In this document: positions 8,229 through 15,291 of the stretch, in pieces
Layout of the letters: every line of letters starts with the position of its first letter
Position numbering within the stretch: the first letter of the stretch is position 1
From: Burkholderiaceae bacterium 26
GTDB taxonomy: Bacteria > Pseudomonadota > Gammaproteobacteria > Burkholderiales > Burkholderiaceae
Assembly: GCA_000955795.1 (NCBI GenBank)
Contig: JYOB01000006.1
Span: 1-64,000 of the forward strand
Direction: 5' to 3'
DNA: 64,000 nucleotides
The notes under the pieces: model-generated
What the model saw: only the letters and a program-made list of their open reading frames with translations
The model's database searches: none
Told to the model about the DNA's origin: nothing
Position numbers and translations under genes: made by a program

Positions 8229-8266
8229 TCTCTCCGGGCTCAAGAAGCCCGTCCACCGCTATGCAT

Positions 8267-8295
8267 TTGCGTGCTCGGTAAACGCCCCGTATACT
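8267..8295 (+). promoter_or_regulatory. sigma70-type promoter of C4/Bro cassette 1
   Basis: TTGCGT (8267-8272), a 17-bp spacer and TATACT (8290-8295). The same elements with the same spacing stand before cassettes 2 and 3, which makes a chance match unlikely. Transcription should start near 8302. Confidence 0.8.
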
Positions 8296-8301
8296 GCGTC
8301 G

Positions 8302-8391
8302 GTCGCCGGAAACACCGGCACACGGGATTGGCGTCCCGGTATACTTCGGCGCACAAGAGCCGCGCCTGCACATTGGACGCGGCTTTTTGTT
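8302..8391 (+). ncRNA. c4: C4-like antisense RNA, copy 1
   Basis: About 87 nt from the inferred start to the T-run. It folds into a GCCGG-AAACA-CCGGC hairpin, then a CGGG...CCCG hairpin whose loop carries guide word b (TTGGCGT). Next comes guide word a (ACTTCGG), and it ends in a terminator (AGCCGCG...CGCGGCT, 8358-8384, then TTTTT). Words b and a (8328-8349) are complementary to leader site 8450-8469. Size, order and linkage to an antirepressor match c4 of P1/P7 (about 77 nt), which blocks antirepressor synthesis in trans. Family membership is inferred. Confidence 0.75.
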
Positions 8392-8449
8392 TGCGCAGCA
8401 TGGTTCTCCTTCGGGCGGGCTGTGTGGGAGGGCTTCGGCCCTGCCGGTT

Positions 8450-8532
8450 CCGAAGTACCGGTACGCCAACCTGCACAGTTCCGCCCACCCGATTGGCGTC
8501 GGGTTGGCGGTTCATATACCGCTACTTCGGAG
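8450..8532 (+). promoter_or_regulatory. leader target and ribosome-site switch of Bro gene 1
   Basis: Site 2 (8450-8469) contains CCGAAGT and ACGCCAA, the complements of guide words a and b. Downstream, word b recurs in a hairpin loop (TTGGCGT, 8493-8499). Word a recurs as ACTTCGG at 8524-8530, overlapping the CGGAG ribosome site of the Bro start at 8540. Site 2 can therefore pair either with the small RNA or with the ribosome site. Confidence 0.75.
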
Positions 8533-8539
8533 TCATGCC

Positions 8540-9190
8540 ATGACTGGTACGTCTGTTGGCGCGTCCGCGCTCGCCCCTACCCCCAATACCTTCAATTTCG
8601 AATCCCATTCGGTACGCGTCGTCATGCGCGACGACGAGCCGTGGTTCGTCGCGGCCGACGTGTGCCGCGCTCTGCAACTCACGAATCCGACAAAGGCCCT
8701 ACTTTCTCTCGACGCTGACGAGAAAGCCCTAACTTCAATTCAGGGCTTATCCCGAGGAAACGATCAGGCCAACGTCATCAGCGAATCCGGCATGTACGCC
8801 CTAGTTCTCCGCTGCCGCGACGCAGTGAAACCCGGCACCGTGCCGCACCGCTTCCGCAAGTGGGTCACGTCCATCGTCCTGCCGGCCATCCGCAAGACCG
8901 GCCAGTTCACGGCACAACCGCGCATCGACGCCGCGCCCCGCGCAGCCCTCACGCCGGAAGAGCTCGCCAGCCTCTACCCCGCCGACGTCGAGCGCGCGCT
9001 GCAACTGCTCAACAAACACATCTACCAGGCAGACCGCTACACCGGCATGCTCATCGTCCTGCAGGCCGACGACGCCAAAGACCCCGTCGTCATCTCCGCC
9101 GGCAGCTATCGGCACAAGCGCGCCCGCGCGCTAACTGATTTTGCGCGGGCGTCGGTGCAGATTTCGGATTTGATTGAGGCGGGGGTGTAG
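8540..9190 (+). CDS. Bro-N domain antirepressor-like protein, copy 1
   Basis: Residues about 17-120 form a Bro-N domain (FNFESHSVRVVMRDDEPWFVAADVCRAL, then ISESGMYALVLRCRDAVKP and FRKWVTSIVLPAIRKTG). These domains occur in phage antirepressors (Ant) and other phage DNA-binding regulators. Residues 140-216 form a helical C-terminal domain with PADVERALQLLNKH and AGSYRHKRARALTDF. The start has a CGGAG site at 8528-8532 and gives the N-terminus shared by copies 1-3. Residues 42-80 differ strongly from the other copies; the rest is almost identical. Probably acts against a phage repressor. Confidence 0.85.
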   Translation: MTGTSVGASALAPTPNTFNFESHSVRVVMRDDEPWFVAADVCRALQLTNPTKALLSLDADEKALTSIQGLSRGNDQANVISESGMYALVLRCRDAVKPGTVPHRFRKWVTSIVLPAIRKTGQFTAQPRIDAAPRAALTPEELASLYPADVERALQLLNKHIYQADRYTGMLIVLQADDAKDPVVISAGSYRHKRARALTDFARASVQISDLIEAGV

Positions 9191-9245
9191 GCGGGTGGGA
9201 TGGGGTTCGCATCGCCGGCCGGGAGGCTGGTGGTGCGGGTTGCGT

Positions 9246-9713
9246 CTACGGAGAGTTCCGTATCTCCACCATCGCTTCAATTTCGACGGCAAAGCCTTTT
9301 GGCAAGGACTTAACCCCCACTGCAGACCGGGTGTGTTGGCCTCGTGCGCCGAACACTTCCACTAGCAGATCGGAACAGCCGTTGATAACTTCGGTGTGCT
9401 CGGTAAAGTCGTCCACCGCATTGACCATCCCCAGCACTTTCACGACCTGCTCCACGCGATCCAGGCTGCCCAATGCGTCCTTCATCAACGCGAGGAGGTA
9501 GATGCCGATTTCCCTGGCGTGGGCTGTTGCTTCTTCGGTGCTGACTTCCCTTCCAACTTTGGGCACTGGTTGCCCCGGTTGCAACTGCCTGCGCGGTGCG
9601 CCTTTTCCAGACAGATAGAGGAAGTTGCCACGGATGATGTAAGGAAGAAAATTCCCGGGTGACGGCAGAACGGGAGGAAGTTCGATGCCCAATTCACGTA
9701 GCCTGGAGTCCAT
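9246..9713 (-). CDS. RidA/YjgF-family protein (155 aa)
   Basis: The protein carries RidA-family features: LPPVLPSPGNFLPYIIRGNFLYLSGKG, HAREIGIYLLALMKDALGSLDRVEQVVKVLGMVNA and the C-terminal VGVKSLPKGFAVEIEAMVEI. RidA proteins hydrolyse reactive enamines/imines and form trimers. The ATG at 9713 is chosen because only from there does the protein match the family; the frame is open further upstream over the VOC gene. It lies 53 bp downstream of VOC copy 2 on the same strand, so the two may be co-transcribed. Confidence 0.85.
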   Translation of the reverse strand: MDSRLRELGIELPPVLPSPGNFLPYIIRGNFLYLSGKGAPRRQLQPGQPVPKVGREVSTEEATAHAREIGIYLLALMKDALGSLDRVEQVVKVLGMVNAVDDFTEHTEVINGCSDLLVEVFGARGQHTRSAVGVKSLPKGFAVEIEAMVEIRNSP

Positions 9714-9766
9714 GAGTCGATGTTTGTGGATGTGGAATTTGCCGGTACCTCGGGTACTGACGCAGG

Positions 9767-10189
9767 TTACGACAGTTCCTGTCCAATCATCATTCGATGC
9801 CCATCCGGTGTCCCCACTAGAAACTCGCGCATGCCGTGCGGTTTGTCGGCTGGAGCTTGCAGGATGATGGCGCCACGGCCGACGAGTTCTGCATGAAGCG
9901 CGTCGGCGTTCGCCACTGTGAGGTAGCCGAAGTAACTGTGGTCGCCGGTTGCTGCAGGCAGCATCGCATCCGGGCAGTGCCCGATCATGATGCGCACAGT
10001 CCCTCTCGTGGCCAGTTTCCAACCCATGCCGTCGGGCCAGTCCAGCCGGAAACCAAGCGCGTCACGAAAGTACGAGGCACTGGCTTCGAGGTCCGGCACT
10101 GCGAGCACGAAAGAGAAAGAACTAAGGTCGCTAGACGTGTCAGCCACTGTGTCACTCCATTTAGAGTCGGGTCGTAGATTGTCAGCCAT
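9767..10189 (-). CDS. VOC (glyoxalase fold) protein, copy 2
   Basis: A near-identical paralogue of the gene at 2229-2609, with the same VOC strands and the same HSYFGYLTV and GTPDGHRMMIG segments. It is 140 residues because its start lies further upstream (MADNLRPDSKW). In copy 1 the equivalent upstream codons are interrupted. Co-directional with the RidA-like gene downstream, so the pair may handle a shared electrophile. Substrate unknown. Confidence 0.85.
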   Translation of the reverse strand: MADNLRPDSKWSDTVADTSSDLSSFSFVLAVPDLEASASYFRDALGFRLDWPDGMGWKLATRGTVRIMIGHCPDAMLPAATGDHSYFGYLTVANADALHAELVGRGAIILQAPADKPHGMREFLVGTPDGHRMMIGQELS

Positions 10190-10202
10190 TCTGCCCCGTA
10201 TT
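9777..10202. repeat. duplicated VOC segment, unit 2 (partner about 2239-2666)
   Basis: This is the second copy of the VOC segment. Left of it lies the RidA-like gene; right of it lies C4/Bro cassette 2. The partner has no cassette beside it, so the duplication is not simply a copy of the whole neighbourhood. Confidence 0.85.
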
Positions 10203-10289
10203 CGGAAGAAATGAGCGGGCCAACGCCATTAGCAAACCAAACTCACGTGGGCCCGCACAACCGCATTTGCGAACCACTGTCACGGAGCA

Positions 10290-10318
10290 TTGCACCCTCC
10301 CCGCACCAGCCGTATACT
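10290..10318 (+). promoter_or_regulatory. sigma70-type promoter of C4/Bro cassette 2
   Basis: TTGCAC (10290-10295), a 17-bp spacer and TATACT (10313-10318), matching cassettes 1 and 3. Start predicted near 10325. Confidence 0.8.
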
Positions 10319-10324
10319 CGGCCG

Positions 10325-10411
10325 GTCGCCGGAAACACCGGCACACGGGATTGGCGTCCCGGAATACAAAGGCGCAAGCAAGCCGCGCTGTCGTTTTACA
10401 CGCGGCTTTGT
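10325..10411 (+). ncRNA. c4: C4-like antisense RNA, copy 2
   Basis: The fold is the same as copy 1: GCCGG-AAACA-CCGGC, a CGGG...CCCG hairpin with loop word b (TTGGCGT), word a (ACAAAGG), and a terminator AGCCGCG...CGCGGCT (10381-10407) followed by TTTGTTGTTT. The guide segment 10351-10372 is complementary to 10481-10501. Word b is the same as in copy 1, but word a is different (ACAAAGG against ACTTCGG). Confidence 0.75.
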
Positions 10412-10480
10412 TGTTTGCGTGTGTCTCGTAGTTGCTCCTATGGCGGCTCCGGGCGGGGCCAGCTTCGGCTGGGCCGGTTT

Positions 10481-10566
10481 CCTTTGTTTCCGGTACGCCA
10501 ACTCCGTTCGGTAGCCGCCCCCTGATTGGCGTCGGGGGGCGGCCTCAAAGCCAAAAAACAAAGGAT
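10481..10566 (+). promoter_or_regulatory. leader target and ribosome-site switch of Bro gene 2
   Basis: Site 2 (10481-10501) holds CCTTTGT and ACGCCAA. Word b recurs at 10526-10532 in the loop of a strong hairpin (GCCGCCCCC 10514-10522 with GGGGGGCGGC 10534-10543). Word a recurs as ACAAAGG at 10558-10564, overlapping the AAAGGA ribosome site before ATG 10573. Confidence 0.75.
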
Positions 10567-10572
10567 TCAACT

Positions 10573-11235
10573 ATGACTAACACGTCTGTTGGCGCGTCCG
10601 CGCTCGCCCCTACCCCGAACACCTTCAATTTCGAATCCCACACCGTGCGCGTCGTTATGCGCGACGACGAGCCTTGGTTCGTTGCCTCAGACGTCTGCAT
10701 GGCGTTGGGATTATCGAATCCGAGCGAAGCACTGCGGTCGCTCGATAGTGACGAACGAATGACCCTCAGCTTAACTGAGGGCTTGGCTGGTCGCCGCGGC
10801 GGCGCTCGTTTGCAGGCGATTGTCAGCGAATCCGGCATGTACACCCTCGTCTTGCGCTGCCGAGACGCAGTGAAGCCCGGCACCGTGCCGTACCGCTTCC
10901 GCAAGTGGGTCACGTCCATCGTCCTGCCGGCCATCCGCAAGGCCGGCGAGTTCACGGCACAACCGCGCATCGACGCCGCGCCCCGTGCAGCCCTCACACC
11001 GGAAGAGCTCGCCAGCCTCTACCCCGCCGACGTCGAGCGCGCGCTGCAACTGCTCAACAAACACATCTACCAGGCAGACCGCTACACCGGCATGCTCATC
11101 GTCCTGCAGGCCGACGACGCCAAAGAGCCCGTCGTCATCTCCGCCGGCAGCTATCGGCACAAGCGCGCCCGCGCCCTGACTGACTTTGCGCGGGCGTCGG
11201 TGCAGATTTCGGATTTGATTGAGGCGGGGGTGTAG
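10573..11235 (+). CDS. Bro-N domain antirepressor-like protein, copy 2
   Basis: 220 residues, with the same N-terminus, Bro-N frame and C-terminal GSYRHKRARALTDFARASVQISDLIEAGV as copy 1. The segment after DVCMALG (GLSNPSEALRSLDSDERMTLSLTEGLAGRRGG) is different and about five residues longer. In Bro/Ant proteins this part of the domain is likely to contact the target, so the copies may act on different repressors. It starts at ATG 10573 behind AAAGGA; upstream in-frame ATGs (10432) lie within the leader and lack ribosome sites. Confidence 0.85.
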   Translation: MTNTSVGASALAPTPNTFNFESHTVRVVMRDDEPWFVASDVCMALGLSNPSEALRSLDSDERMTLSLTEGLAGRRGGARLQAIVSESGMYTLVLRCRDAVKPGTVPYRFRKWVTSIVLPAIRKAGEFTAQPRIDAAPRAALTPEELASLYPADVERALQLLNKHIYQADRYTGMLIVLQADDAKEPVVISAGSYRHKRARALTDFARASVQISDLIEAGV

Positions 11236-11326
11236 GGGGATGGGGCTCGCATCGCTGGCAGGGTTGGCGGCGGTGCGGCTCTTTGGCGATGACGGCTATT
11301 GGCCGGTTGCAGACACTGGCGCTTGC

Positions 11327-11773
11327 CTAGTTATCTGTCACTCGCTGACTTTGATAGGAAATGAAGCGACTCGCTTGGTTTGCGAGGCTTTGATGGATAT
11401 CAACGCGCTCGGCAACACCTCGCAGCGCTGAAAAGTACTCTTCGCGCTCTTGCTCGGACAAATTCGAGTTCAGGACGCGGTTGACCATCAGTAAGGCATT
11501 GAGCGACGGTGCCCGGGCCAGCGACTCGAGAAGAATACCTTTGTAGCTGGGGTAGAAATGCTCCGTTAGATGGACCAGAGTCCCGGGCGCACCGCAATCC
11601 TCCAAAGGGTACTTTTCGAAGAACCGAAAGATGGCAGGGATTAGGCTTGCTTGATATGACGGCGGGACGGACTCAACCAGCTTGTCCACCTCTAGCACGA
11701 AGCTATCCCCCCGAGGGTTTAGCTCTAACAGGCGAATCTCGAAGTTCCTGACGGTATCCATAGAGGCTTGCAT
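11327..11773 (-). CDS. protein of unknown function, helical (148 aa)
   Basis: A soluble, acidic, mainly helical protein, with segments such as YQASLIPAIFRFFEKYPLEDCGAPGTLVHLTEHF and SLARAPSLNALLMVNRVLNSNLSEQE that suggest paired alpha repeats. Small HEAT-like proteins of this size are often immunity proteins, but there is no toxin beside it. The first or second Met (11773 or 11761) could be the start; neither has a good ribosome site. It sits between cassettes 2 and 3 and is probably cargo. Confidence 0.6.
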   Translation of the reverse strand: MQASMDTVRNFEIRLLELNPRGDSFVLEVDKLVESVPPSYQASLIPAIFRFFEKYPLEDCGAPGTLVHLTEHFYPSYKGILLESLARAPSLNALLMVNRVLNSNLSEQEREEYFSALRGVAERVDIHQSLANQASRFISYQSQRVTDN

Positions 11774-11960
11774 AGGCTTGGGCTAGCTCCAAACGCGGCG
11801 TCTCTGCTGTCAGCGGACGCTGCTAGTTTCGGCATTAGGTGCAATGATTGTCAGCCACAGAGCTTCGCTTGTCGAATGACCGCTCTTGGCCGAAAGGCGC
11901 CGATGGCTAACCGCTTACGTTCCCCGACGGTCAATCCTATCGGCTTCAGACCCTAGACCC

Positions 11961-12482
11961 TTAGTGCGCGATCGCGGCTGCCGCCCAGTTACGCTGAACA
12001 TCCAGCAACGCGTCGGTCAGCGTGGTCGATGGGGCGGGCATCAGCATCGTCGCCAGCATCGGACGCTCTGCGCAGTGTTCGACCTCGATGAAAAGATCGT
12101 TGCGATCGGGGGCAAGCTCCTTCACCAGTTTGGCGCCGCGCTGGCTCTGCAGGTACATTGCAATCAGCCGCGGGTGGAACGCCTCGTCCGATGAAGAGAT
12201 CAACAATGACGAGGTCACAATCTTGCCGCCGGCCCACATCGAGAAGATTGCATCGCCGTCCCGCAATGTCGCATCCAGCTTGCACGCCACGCCCGCGACC
12301 TCGAAGCTGTTTTCGATCTTACCTTCCTCAGGACGCGCCACGCCTTGAGCCGGAGCGTCGATCCAATCTTGGCGAAGCACCGTGCCATCTGGAAAGAAGA
12401 GCACCTCGAACATCCTGATCTGTGCAGTGGCGGTCGCGACGGGGGTTTCAACGATATGTTTGCGGCGGCCGAATCTGAACAT
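11961..12482 (-). CDS. protein of unknown function (173 aa)
   Basis: A soluble alpha/beta protein starting MFRFGRRKHIVETP. ATG 12482 is chosen for its AAAGGAGAAGCAAG ribosome site. The middle is beta-rich (IRMFEVLFFPDGTVLRQDWIDAP, FEVAGVACKLDATLRDGDAIFSMWAGGKI), and helices with a hydrophobic end follow. I do not recognise it. The frame stays open upstream into a fragment of a phage Rz gene, which is not part of this protein. Probably cargo. Confidence 0.65.
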   Translation of the reverse strand: MFRFGRRKHIVETPVATATAQIRMFEVLFFPDGTVLRQDWIDAPAQGVARPEEGKIENSFEVAGVACKLDATLRDGDAIFSMWAGGKIVTSSLLISSSDEAFHPRLIAMYLQSQRGAKLVKELAPDRNDLFIEVEHCAERPMLATMLMPAPSTTLTDALLDVQRNWAAAAIAH

Positions 12483-12572
12483 CTTGCTTCTCCTTTTTTT
12501 CGCGGGCCCACCGTCTAGAGAAAACAAGCGTGCCGACTCTGATACTACCGGTGATCGGCCGATTTGCGACTC

Positions 12573-12621
12573 CATCTCCGTGACATGAGTAAGGTCGAGC
12601 GCGTCTAGCTGATCGACAAGC
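12573..12621 (-). pseudogene. 49-bp remnant of the phage Rz (spanin) gene
   Basis: The minus strand encodes LVDQLDALDLTHVTEMESQ, which matches LTDQLDALDRTHFSEMQRA inside the intact Rz gene (DNA 15058-15106) at about 80% nucleotide identity. It ends 6 bp before the -35 box of cassette 3. It shows that this cassette, or the cargo beside it, recombined with the end of the lysis operon. Confidence 0.7.
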
Positions 12622-12627
12622 CGCGAT

Positions 12628-12656
12628 TTGCACGCAACCCCAACCAGCCGTATACT
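12628..12656 (+). promoter_or_regulatory. sigma70-type promoter of C4/Bro cassette 3
   Basis: TTGCAC (12628-12633), a 17-bp spacer and TATACT (12651-12656), as in cassettes 1 and 2. Start predicted near 12663. Confidence 0.8.
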
Positions 12657-12662
12657 CGGCCG

Positions 12663-12752
12663 GTTGCCGGAAACACCGGCACCCCGGGCTTGGTCGCCCG
12701 GCACTCAAGGCGCTAATGAGCCGCGCCGCATTTCAATGCACGCGGCTTTTTG
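12663..12752 (+). ncRNA. c4: C4-like antisense RNA, copy 3
   Basis: Same fold as copies 1 and 2: GCCGG-AAACA-CCGGC, then CCCGGG...CCCGG with loop word b, then word a, then the terminator AGCCGCG...CGCGGCT (12719-12747) and TTTTT. Both guide words differ from copies 1 and 2: b is TTGGTCG and a is ACTCAAGG. The guide segment 12690-12710 is complementary to the changed leader site 12815-12834. The double compensatory change is strong evidence that the pairing matters. Confidence 0.8.
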
Positions 12753-12814
12753 TTTGCGCACGTCTGGCAGCTTCTATGGTGGGCCGGGCGGGGACCCCTT
12801 CGGGGGTGCCGGTT

Positions 12815-12896
12815 CCTTGAGTCCGGTCGACCAACCCCGTTCGGTCCACCCCCCGTTTGGTCGCGGGGCGGCGGGTCTCAAACCGCACTCAAGGAG
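12815..12896 (+). promoter_or_regulatory. leader target and ribosome-site switch of Bro gene 3
   Basis: Site 2 (12815-12834) holds CCTTGAGT and CGACCAA. Word b recurs as TTGGTCG (12857-12863) in a CCCCCCG...CGGGG hairpin loop. Word a recurs as GCACTCAAGG (12885-12894), overlapping the AAGGAG ribosome site (12891-12896) of ATG 12904. A TTCG-capped hairpin (CCCC-TTCG-GGGG) lies just before site 2. Confidence 0.8.
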
Positions 12897-12903
12897 TCAA
12901 GCC

Positions 12904-13545
12904 ATGACTGGTACGTCTGTTGGCGCGTCCGCGCTCGTCCCTACCCCCAACACCTTCAATTTCGAATCGAACGCTGTCCGTGTGGTTGTGCGAGATGGCG
13001 AGCCGTGGTTTGTTGCCGCCGATCTCTGCGCAGCACTGCATTTGGACGCAACGGCAATTCGCAAATTGGAGGAAGACGAAAAGGGTCTGCATTCAATGCA
13101 GACCCTTGGCGGGACGCAATCTATGGCCGTCATCAGTGAATCCGGCATGTACACCCTCGTCCTGCGCTGCCGCGATGCCGTGAAGCCCGGCACCGTGCCG
13201 CACCGCTTCCGCAAGTGGGTCACGTCCATCGTCCTGCCGTCCATCCGCAAGACCGGCCAGTTCACCGCACAACCGCGCATCGACGCCGCGCCCCGCGCAG
13301 CTCTCACACCGGAAGAGCTCGCCAGCCTCTACCCCGCCGACGTCGAGCGCGCGCTGCAACTGCTCAACAAACACATCTACCAGGCAGACCGCTACACCGG
13401 CATGCTCATCGTCCTGCAGCACGACGACGCCAAAGAGCCCGTCGTCATCTCCGCCGGCAGCTATCGGCACAAGCGCGCCCGCGCGCTGACTGACTTTGCG
13501 CGGGCGTCGGTGCAGATTTCGGATTTGATTGAGGCGGGGGTGTAG
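12904..13545 (+). CDS. Bro-N domain antirepressor-like protein, copy 3
   Basis: 213 residues. The N-terminal 20 and C-terminal ~125 residues are almost the same as in copies 1 and 2. The part between DLCAAL and VISESGMY is different again (HLDATAIRKLEEDEKGLHSMQTLGGTQSMA). The start has a perfect AAGGAG. After the stop, a stretch of about 60 bp (TGGGGCTTGCATCGCTGG...) is shared with copies 1 and 2, so the cassette extends past the gene. Confidence 0.85.
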   Translation: MTGTSVGASALVPTPNTFNFESNAVRVVVRDGEPWFVAADLCAALHLDATAIRKLEEDEKGLHSMQTLGGTQSMAVISESGMYTLVLRCRDAVKPGTVPHRFRKWVTSIVLPSIRKTGQFTAQPRIDAAPRAALTPEELASLYPADVERALQLLNKHIYQADRYTGMLIVLQHDDAKEPVVISAGSYRHKRARALTDFARASVQISDLIEAGV

Positions 13546-14769: not shown

Positions 14770-15291
14770 TCAGCGCTGCACACAAACGCCAACCCCTTCG
14801 ACCGCACGCTCACGCGCCTGCAAGTATCTCAGTTTCTCCCCGTCCCGCTCGGCTCCTGCGAAGAGATCGACAAGATCCGCCGCATCCTCTCCAGATAGCT
14901 CACATCGGCCGGCGGCTCCATCGCCCAGGCTGGCGGCGGGCTGATCTTCACCTGCGCCGGCACTGGCGTCGGGCTGGCAACGGGCGCGCATTGACATCCG
15001 TACATCACCAGCAGCAAGAGCGCGCTGCAGACGCGTGTTCTCATCGGTGGCACGTTGCATCTCCGAGAAATGGGTACGGTCGAGCGCGTCGAGCTGGTCG
15101 GTAAGCTGCCGGTGCCGGGCGATGGCAGCCTGCAGCGCGGTCATAACGGTATCGATGGCGGCTTGGCGCTCGATGGCGTGGTCGCGTTGCATCTGCGCGA
15201 TGGTCTTGTCGTAGCGGTTGGCCTGCCAGCCCCACGCGGCTGCTGCAGCCACCGCTGCCACTGCCAGGAGCCGGACGATTGCGAAGTTCAT
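14770..15291 (-). CDS. Rz: phage spanin inner-membrane subunit (Rz-like)
   Basis: The N-terminal signal anchor (FAIVRLLAVAAVAAAAAWGW, about 4-22) is followed by a long coiled coil (YDKTIAQMQRDHAIERQAAIDTVMTALQ) and the segment RHRQLTDQLDALDRTHFSEM. It spans the periplasm with Rz1 to fuse the membranes at lysis. The start at 15291 follows from the signal anchor. Rz1 lies inside it in another frame. The last ~60 residues are less conserved-looking, and the 14600-14770 region downstream contains no gene I can support. Confidence 0.8.
   Translation of the reverse strand: MNFAIVRLLAVAAVAAAAAWGWQANRYDKTIAQMQRDHAIERQAAIDTVMTALQAAIARHRQLTDQLDALDRTHFSEMQRATDENTRLQRALAAGDVRMSMRARCQPDASAGAGEDQPAASLGDGAAGRCELSGEDAADLVDLFAGAERDGEKLRYLQARERAVEGVGVCVQR
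14829..15044 (-). CDS. Rz1: phage spanin outer-membrane lipoprotein (Rz1-like), nested in Rz
   Basis: MRTRVCSALLLLVMYGCQC is a lipoprotein signal with lipobox LVMYGC. A proline-rich mature part follows (APVASPTPVPAQVKISPPPAWAMEPPADV), as in other Rz1 proteins. It lies wholly within the Rz gene in the +1 frame. Its ATG overlaps, as ATGA, the stop of the long holin-side frame 15041-15559. Confidence 0.8.
   Translation of the reverse strand: MRTRVCSALLLLVMYGCQCAPVASPTPVPAQVKISPPPAWAMEPPADVSYLERMRRILSISSQEPSGTGRN

Follow-up and report, generated by a model that had tools for sequence, protein, structure and literature searches.

In phages P1 and P7, immunity is controlled by C4, the classic antisense switch based on two words. 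In P1, a leader open reading frame (ORF), icd, lies between C4 and the antirepressor gene. The C4 RNA (RF01695) acts by occluding the ribosome site of the operon that it targets (PMC5320573), and the motif c4-a1b1 (RF03163) is listed in the motif table of PMC2864571. In Gifsy-1, one transcript carries the short terminated RNA IsrK (RF01394), the processed RNA STnc1160 downstream of it and the orf45-anrP antirepressor mRNA; experiments established the processed STnc1160 and the activation in trans, by short IsrK, of its own read-through mRNA (PMC4825925). The CI RNA of P4 shows three-site complementarity on one transcript (seqA, seqB, seqC) but acts via termination (PMC4825925); its likeness to the system described here is one of layout. 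We describe three adjacent C4 cassettes in a 64,000-nucleotide stretch of contig JYOB01000006.1 from Burkholderiaceae bacterium 26 (referred to as 'the window'), each preceding a Bro-N antirepressor gene, together with C4 RNAs in related genomes that stand without a matching target.

The leaders of the three cassettes (8267-8540, 10290-10573 and 12627-12904) follow a common plan (Table 1). As the original prediction had claimed, two short words, a and b, occur at an upstream site (site 1), as their exact reverse complements, a' and b', about 100 nucleotides later (site 2), and again near the start codon (site 3). Two or more ordered word/reverse complement/word triplets arose in 12, 12 and 22 of the 4000 dinucleotide-preserving shuffles run on the leaders of copies 1, 2 and 3, respectively. 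RF01695 matched all three copies over its full model (1-87), at 62.7, 71.7 and 77.7 bits against a gathering threshold of 45. The downstream ORFs encode Bro-N proteins (PF02498) that also match PHROG anti-repressor families, so the predicted C4/antirepressor identity stands. The C4 RNA itself had been placed at site 1, which we reject: every RF01695 match lies at site 2, downstream of the intervals proposed for the Rfam check (8260-8400, 10280-10420 and 12620-12760). Site 2 is the C4 RNA.

In all three copies a' occupies the P3 loop and b' the 3' linker, as in a two-guide C4 RNA, and a2, the site-3 copy of word a, overlaps a GGAG or GGA ahead of the ATG, which puts the target on the antirepressor ribosome binding site. 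The C4 matches, the three-site words and the Bro-N antirepressors together identify the known a1b1-c4-a2b2 layout of P1/P7: both share the RNA fold, the pair of guides, the placement of a1b1 upstream and of a2b2 on the ribosome site, and an antirepressor downstream. Because this three-site layout is published (PMC2864571, RF03163), it is not the unusual part. The window differs from P1/P7 in having three adjacent copies with different words and, in each, a terminator-like hairpin that separates site 1 from C4; the cassettes are solid new C4 members in an unusual triple layout. Chance inverted repeats in a GC-rich leader can yield single triplets, which appeared in 149, 169 and 294 of the 4000 shuffles, but we regard chance as ruled out for practical purposes by the two ordered triplets in every copy, the Rfam matches and the genus-wide cognate pairing described below. 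C4 also directly preceded the Bro-N gene in six of 20 viral contigs encoding relatives, the 20 being drawn from 80 relative-encoding loci.

Table 1. Parts of the three cassettes and a partial fourth antirepressor copy, in window coordinates.
Feature	Position	Strand	Basis
Copy 1 promoter-like pair TTGCGT-17-TATACT	8267..8295	+	by eye from sequence; absent from promoter scan list
Copy 1 c4-a1b1 match	8289-8342		21.9 bits, below gathering (46.7)
Copy 1 site 1, IsrK-like RNA: hairpin with b1, then a1, then predicted intrinsic terminator	8305..8389	+	isrK 35.0 bits; fold; b1 at 8328, a1 at 8343
Copy 1 putative terminator GCCGCG...CGCGGCTTTTTGTTT	8359..8392	+	by eye from sequence; absent from scan list
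Copy 1 C4 antisense RNA	8407..8492	+	RF01695 62.7 bits; a' 8450-8456, b' 8463-8469
Copy 1 target site 3	8493..8530	+	b2 8493-8499; a2 8524-8530, overlapping Shine-Dalgarno
Copy 1 Bro-N antirepressor, 216 aa	8540..9190	+	PF02498 E 5.9e-19; PHROG anti-repressor Ant
Copy 2 promoter-like pair TTGCAC-17-TATACT	10290..10318	+	by eye from sequence; absent from promoter scan list
Copy 2 c4-a1b1 match	10312-10365		26.2 bits, below gathering
Copy 2 site 1, IsrK-like RNA with predicted terminator	10328..10412	+	isrK 36.2 bits, below gathering; b1 at 10351, a1 at 10366
Copy 2 C4 antisense RNA	10436..10525	+	RF01695 71.7 bits; a' 10481-10487, b' 10495-10501
Copy 2 target site 3	10526..10564	+	b2 10526-10532; a2 10558-10564
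Copy 2 Bro-N antirepressor, 220 aa	10573..11235	+	PF02498 E 6e-17; PHROG
Copy 3 promoter-like pair ending TATACT	12627..12656	+	9/12 matches in promoter scan
Copy 3 c4-a1b1 match	12650-12704		21.1 bits, below gathering
Copy 3 site 1, IsrK-like RNA with predicted terminator	12663..12752	+	isrK 32.1 bits, below gathering; b1 at 12690, a1 at 12703
Copy 3 C4 antisense RNA	12772..12856	+	RF01695 77.7 bits; a' 12815-12822, b' 12828-12834
Copy 3 target site 3	12857..12894	+	b2 12857-12863; a2 12887-12894
Copy 3 Bro-N antirepressor, 213 aa	12904..13545	+	PF02498 E 1.2e-16; PHROG
Partial fourth antirepressor copy, final 126 residues	4407..4784	+	tblastn 95% identity to residues 88-213

Each cassette is very probably a C4-type antisense switch for its Bro-N antirepressor. 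One transcript would run from the putative promoter through site 1, an intrinsic terminator, C4 and site 3 (b2, then a2 on the Shine-Dalgarno sequence) into the antirepressor ORF. Cutting of the read-through transcript would free the C4 RNA; GG, the predicted RNase P processing point, is present at the start of the P1 element in the window's C4 matches. Guides a' and b' would then pair with a2 and b2 and block antirepressor translation, which would keep a linked phage repressed. Because it has the same words as the target, the short site-1 RNA could bind C4, and once terminated it may titrate C4 and relieve repression, like IsrK in Gifsy-1. Since the word pairs differ between copies, each cassette would mainly recognise itself.

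Several observations weigh against this reading. The three cassettes lack the icd-like leader ORF of P1, their antirepressor ORF lying directly at the target. The promoter scan of the window recovered one of the three promoter-like pairs; the terminator scan recovered one partial stem (10390-10406), and the six terminator-like sites found, against 4.7 expected, are not above chance. The site-1 matches to c4-a1b1 and isrK (Table 1) come from a permissive scan and all lie under gathering (46.7 and 50 bits, respectively). Finally, the copy-2 target has a duplex energy of -26.0 with copy-3 guides versus -23.8 with its own.

The hairpin between site 1 and C4, followed by a T run in all three copies, would also suit a switch that acts mainly via premature transcription termination, with site-1 pairing tipping the terminator in the manner of P4 CI; the seqA/CI/seqC parallel is discussed in PMC4825925. 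We consider this unlikely, since a2 sits on the Shine-Dalgarno sequence, as a translational block predicts, and since in Gifsy-1 growth arrest became stronger, not weaker, when IsrK was combined with constitutive STnc1160 (PMC4825925).

Site 1 folds into two hairpins, with b1 inside the second, followed by a1 and a terminator-like stem; the second hairpin carries UUGGC, as the isrK consensus does. It is an a1b1/isrK-like element resembling both c4-a1b1 and isrK, and the likeness suggests that it works like c4-a1b1, though we do not file it as a member of RF03163. Among 17 other loci scanned, of which 15 had a C4 match, isrK at or above gathering stood just upstream of C4 in six, which supports a link between isrK and C4. 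The layout in the window suggests, by analogy, one scheme for P1/P7 C4 and Gifsy-1 IsrK; it departs from Gifsy-1 in its sub-threshold isrK scores, and no orf45 equivalent was seen. The link may already be in print; the main text of PMC4825925 lacks the C4/P1 terms looked for.

A second Rfam family, sRNA-Xcc1 (RF02221), fills the C4 slot ahead of Bro-N genes at four loci: L179 (2854-2939), L181 (2849-2938), L188 (2840-2926) and L072 (2325-2409). At a fifth, L178, a tandem sRNA-Xcc1 pair (2245-2332 and 2459-2542) lies farther upstream of the Bro-N gene. It differs from C4 in being a separate family with no clan listed, but because in L179, L188 and L072 sites 1 and 3 have two words in common, sRNA-Xcc1 looks C4-type. 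Treating isrK and sRNA-Xcc1 as parts of one three-site scheme would unite families that are separate in Rfam.

We then surveyed 16 Ralstonia-group genomes (genomes and loci are given by our G and L numbers). All 16 contain C4 matches, 2-20 per genome; there were 191 in total, of which 153 were listed and 150 inspected as loci, the weakest matches being those missing. The source genome has 17, 14 of them above gathering. In a family-wide sample, searched with stricter filters, 49 of 120 genomes had a C4 match, with 10 from this genus among them. The 150 loci comprise 108 complete cassettes, 28 members of two subfamilies (17 and 11), one similar locus and 13 orphan C4 RNAs. 'Complete' is a lenient class (A2 score of at least 8.5 and B2 of at least 7.5), and two G006 orphans that passed it were reassigned by hand. 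The 110 loci first called complete hold 58 distinct word pairs, which makes this one genus a ready source of material for finding out how small a number of base pairs can determine specificity.

The words change together over the 16 genomes, and cognate pairing exceeded non-cognate pairing across the 150 loci in statistics that treat related genomes as independent. For a', the median score was 10.5 against its own Shine-Dalgarno region versus 6.7 against foreign ones (105/150 beyond the 95% point of the null) and 10.0 versus 7.1 at site 1 (88/150). The b words gave a weaker signal, partly because different cassettes share them: 8.5 versus 5.9 at site 3 (41/150) and 8.5 versus 6.5 at site 1 (65/150). 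In the two subfamilies site 3 shows little or nothing of its usual match, but for 23 of the 28 loci a' scores above the site-1 null.

The larger subfamily, with b' TATTGCAG, comprises L013, L015, L120, L123-L125, L127, L129, L130, L133, L136, L137, L139-L141, L148 and L149. Its a' and site 1 mostly match and covary between genomes, over up to 14 nucleotides, with site 3 weakly matched or unmatched.

The copies had also been predicted to be orthogonal. This holds in part: cognate pairing exceeds foreign pairing overall, but the copy-2 target prefers copy-3 guides, and in an energy matrix excluding G009, which has one cassette, the cognate C4 is the best energetic partner for 77 of 107 targets (6 of 13 in the source genome). 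We dropped the claim of clean orthogonality, since the energy matrices of both window and genus were against it. The word differences might instead reflect drift under a pairing constraint plus recombination, without selected orthogonality, an account to which we give somewhat less than an even chance. The incomplete energetic preference favours it, as does the structure of the three antirepressor genes: the greater part of their 3' halves is 95-100% identical, with far more divergence in the leaders and in the 5' Bro-N core, the pattern that mosaic recombination would give. Against it, no a' loop is repeated among the 108 complete cassettes within any of the 16 genomes, although the same a' recurs across genomes in different flank clusters. 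Orthology inflates this non-repetition, and clustering on the downstream flank only can over-split, so the point is not decisive against drift.

The new part of this analysis concerns the 13 orphan C4 RNAs, some in tandem, that have no matching target alongside; by sequence matching, the words of most of them fit the cassettes of other strains. For 11 of the 13, a complete cassette with both words was found in another genome and none in their own (label shuffle P 0.024, random-genome P 0.086). With a' alone, 12 of the 13 had a cognate, one of them in its own genome (label shuffle P 0.036). The orphan G007:C2:538172 matches on a word only, and G015:C2:2129792 has no target in the genome set. 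In genome-wide pattern searches each of eight targets occurred in 1-6 genomes, and in none of 11 cases did it share a genome with the matching orphan (label shuffle P 0.016, random-genome P 0.057). These counts follow removal by eye of pattern matches without cassette form: one for target A (G007), one for E (G011), three for T3 (two in G012, one in G014), three for G (two in G005 and a site-1 match in G013) and two site-1 matches for C. The T1 pattern matched all 16 genomes, including G004; five were counted. An earlier, loose helix criterion had given own-genome matches for 4 of 12 orphans (label shuffle P 0.44). We judged these mostly due to the shared AGGAGG core, and therefore replaced that criterion by shared-word matching and then by the pattern searches.

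A published parallel is the Group 1 small RNAs of Acinetobacter baumannii, 21 C4-like RNAs with variable a' loops in one genome, for which the authors named incoming phages as one possible target and thought host transcripts likelier (PMC5320573). The available portion of that paper describes no matching targets or allele-linked guide swaps. Literature matches listed for 'C4 antisense RNA', mostly open papers and judged from the listing, included none on orphan guide arrays or Ralstonia.

Two loci allow residents and orphans to be compared in place. At locus 1, whose shared position is backed by the flanks on one or both sides (checked afterwards), the resident cassette is of type A (G004, G008), B (G015), C (G005) or D (G000, G006, G007, G014), and orphans directed at other types lie behind it: C and B in G004, C and A in G015, A and B in G006. 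At locus 2 the resident is T1 (G000, G005, G014, G015), T2 (G002, G004, G006) or T3 (G007), and the upstream orphan is T1-directed in G004, T3-directed in G002 and without an assigned target in G015. Both G000 and G005 show an apparent part of such an orphan, while G006, G007 and G014 have none. In the first C4 of locus 1, 9 of 14 loop positions differ versus 1-2 of 78 in the backbone (two differing pairs). The locus-2 orphans differ at 13/36 loop versus 26/240 backbone positions, pooled over three dependent pairs, with 3/12 versus 12/80 for the pair G004-G002 alone; all guide-versus-backbone P values pool dependent pairs. The second C4 of locus 1 gave no clear guide excess over the backbone (P 0.05) because a', b' and the stretch between them changed together. 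By these comparisons, the two loci exchange the guide while conserving the backbone around it.

The main alternative for the orphans, that they are functionless, decaying relics of whole cassettes, has in our view nearly an even chance. Some orphans are followed by what is left of b2 and of start regions, the small-protein gene behind one of the G007 orphans seems, as read from its sequence, to have an internal deletion, and the orphan array is wholly absent from four of the eight locus-1 genomes compared (G000, G005, G007, G014). A relic would likewise have no matching target in its own genome, so own-genome absence does not separate decay from immunity. Other features fit decay less well: orphan C4 scores remain high (52.7-71.4 bits), guides were swapped with the backbone kept at the same position (the first C4 of locus 1 and, though weakly in G004-G002, locus 2), and in G015, which has a type B resident, an orphan followed by B-type remnants bears a type-A guide. 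We tentatively propose, with rather less than even confidence, that many Ralstonia cassettes control small proteins rather than antirepressors, that cassettes that have lost their genes persist as orphan C4 RNAs, their guides rewritten toward the alleles of other strains, sometimes at the same locus, and that these orphans form RNA immunity arrays. If true, the arrays would parallel, at the RNA level, the orphan immunity genes of toxin systems. The orphan copies offer a direct way to test for RNA-guided immunity between competing alleles.

A small protein family of ~90-130 aa (LTKNRxYLxGA...RPGxLREQL...GFxDAID) follows many C4 cassettes (L004, L006, L008, L009, L011, L012, L017 and related loci). 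The members tested had no match at E <0.01 in Pfam, PHROGs or NCBIfam, and the L004 protein had no relative in phage records, plasmid records or viral contigs. At L051 (G007:C2:538172-538528) two orphan C4 RNAs flank a small-protein gene with an apparent internal deletion. Some cassettes are placed between chromosomal genes, being followed by an isocitrate lyase gene (L003), a glyoxalase-like gene (L009) or a DUF2968 gene (L007); the L002 cassette precedes a toprim/DnaG-like gene, an arrangement typical of mobile elements.

Within the window, the copy 3 antirepressor shares 86% identity with that of copy 1 and 83% with that of copy 2, and the Rfam scan gave no C4 match at gathering beside the partial fourth copy. 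Copies 1 and 2 are separated by a RidA-like and a glyoxalase-like gene; the latter occurs a second time (2223-2661) upstream of the cassettes, where the partial antirepressor also lies. To the right of the cassettes, a prophage on the minus strand (14.8-33.3 kb) carries spanin, endolysin, tail, tape measure, sheath, head and portal genes; a search of the phage collection gave no near match to the prophage region at 13.6-38.5 kb. The same antirepressor cassette occurs in G001, G002, G005, G006 and G015, one copy each among the matches listed, with a spanin-like fragment ~2.5-4.5 kb from the cassette in G001, G002 and G006. A 52-bp stretch before copy 3 (12573-12624) matches a portion of the prophage spanin gene (15058-15109) at 83% identity.

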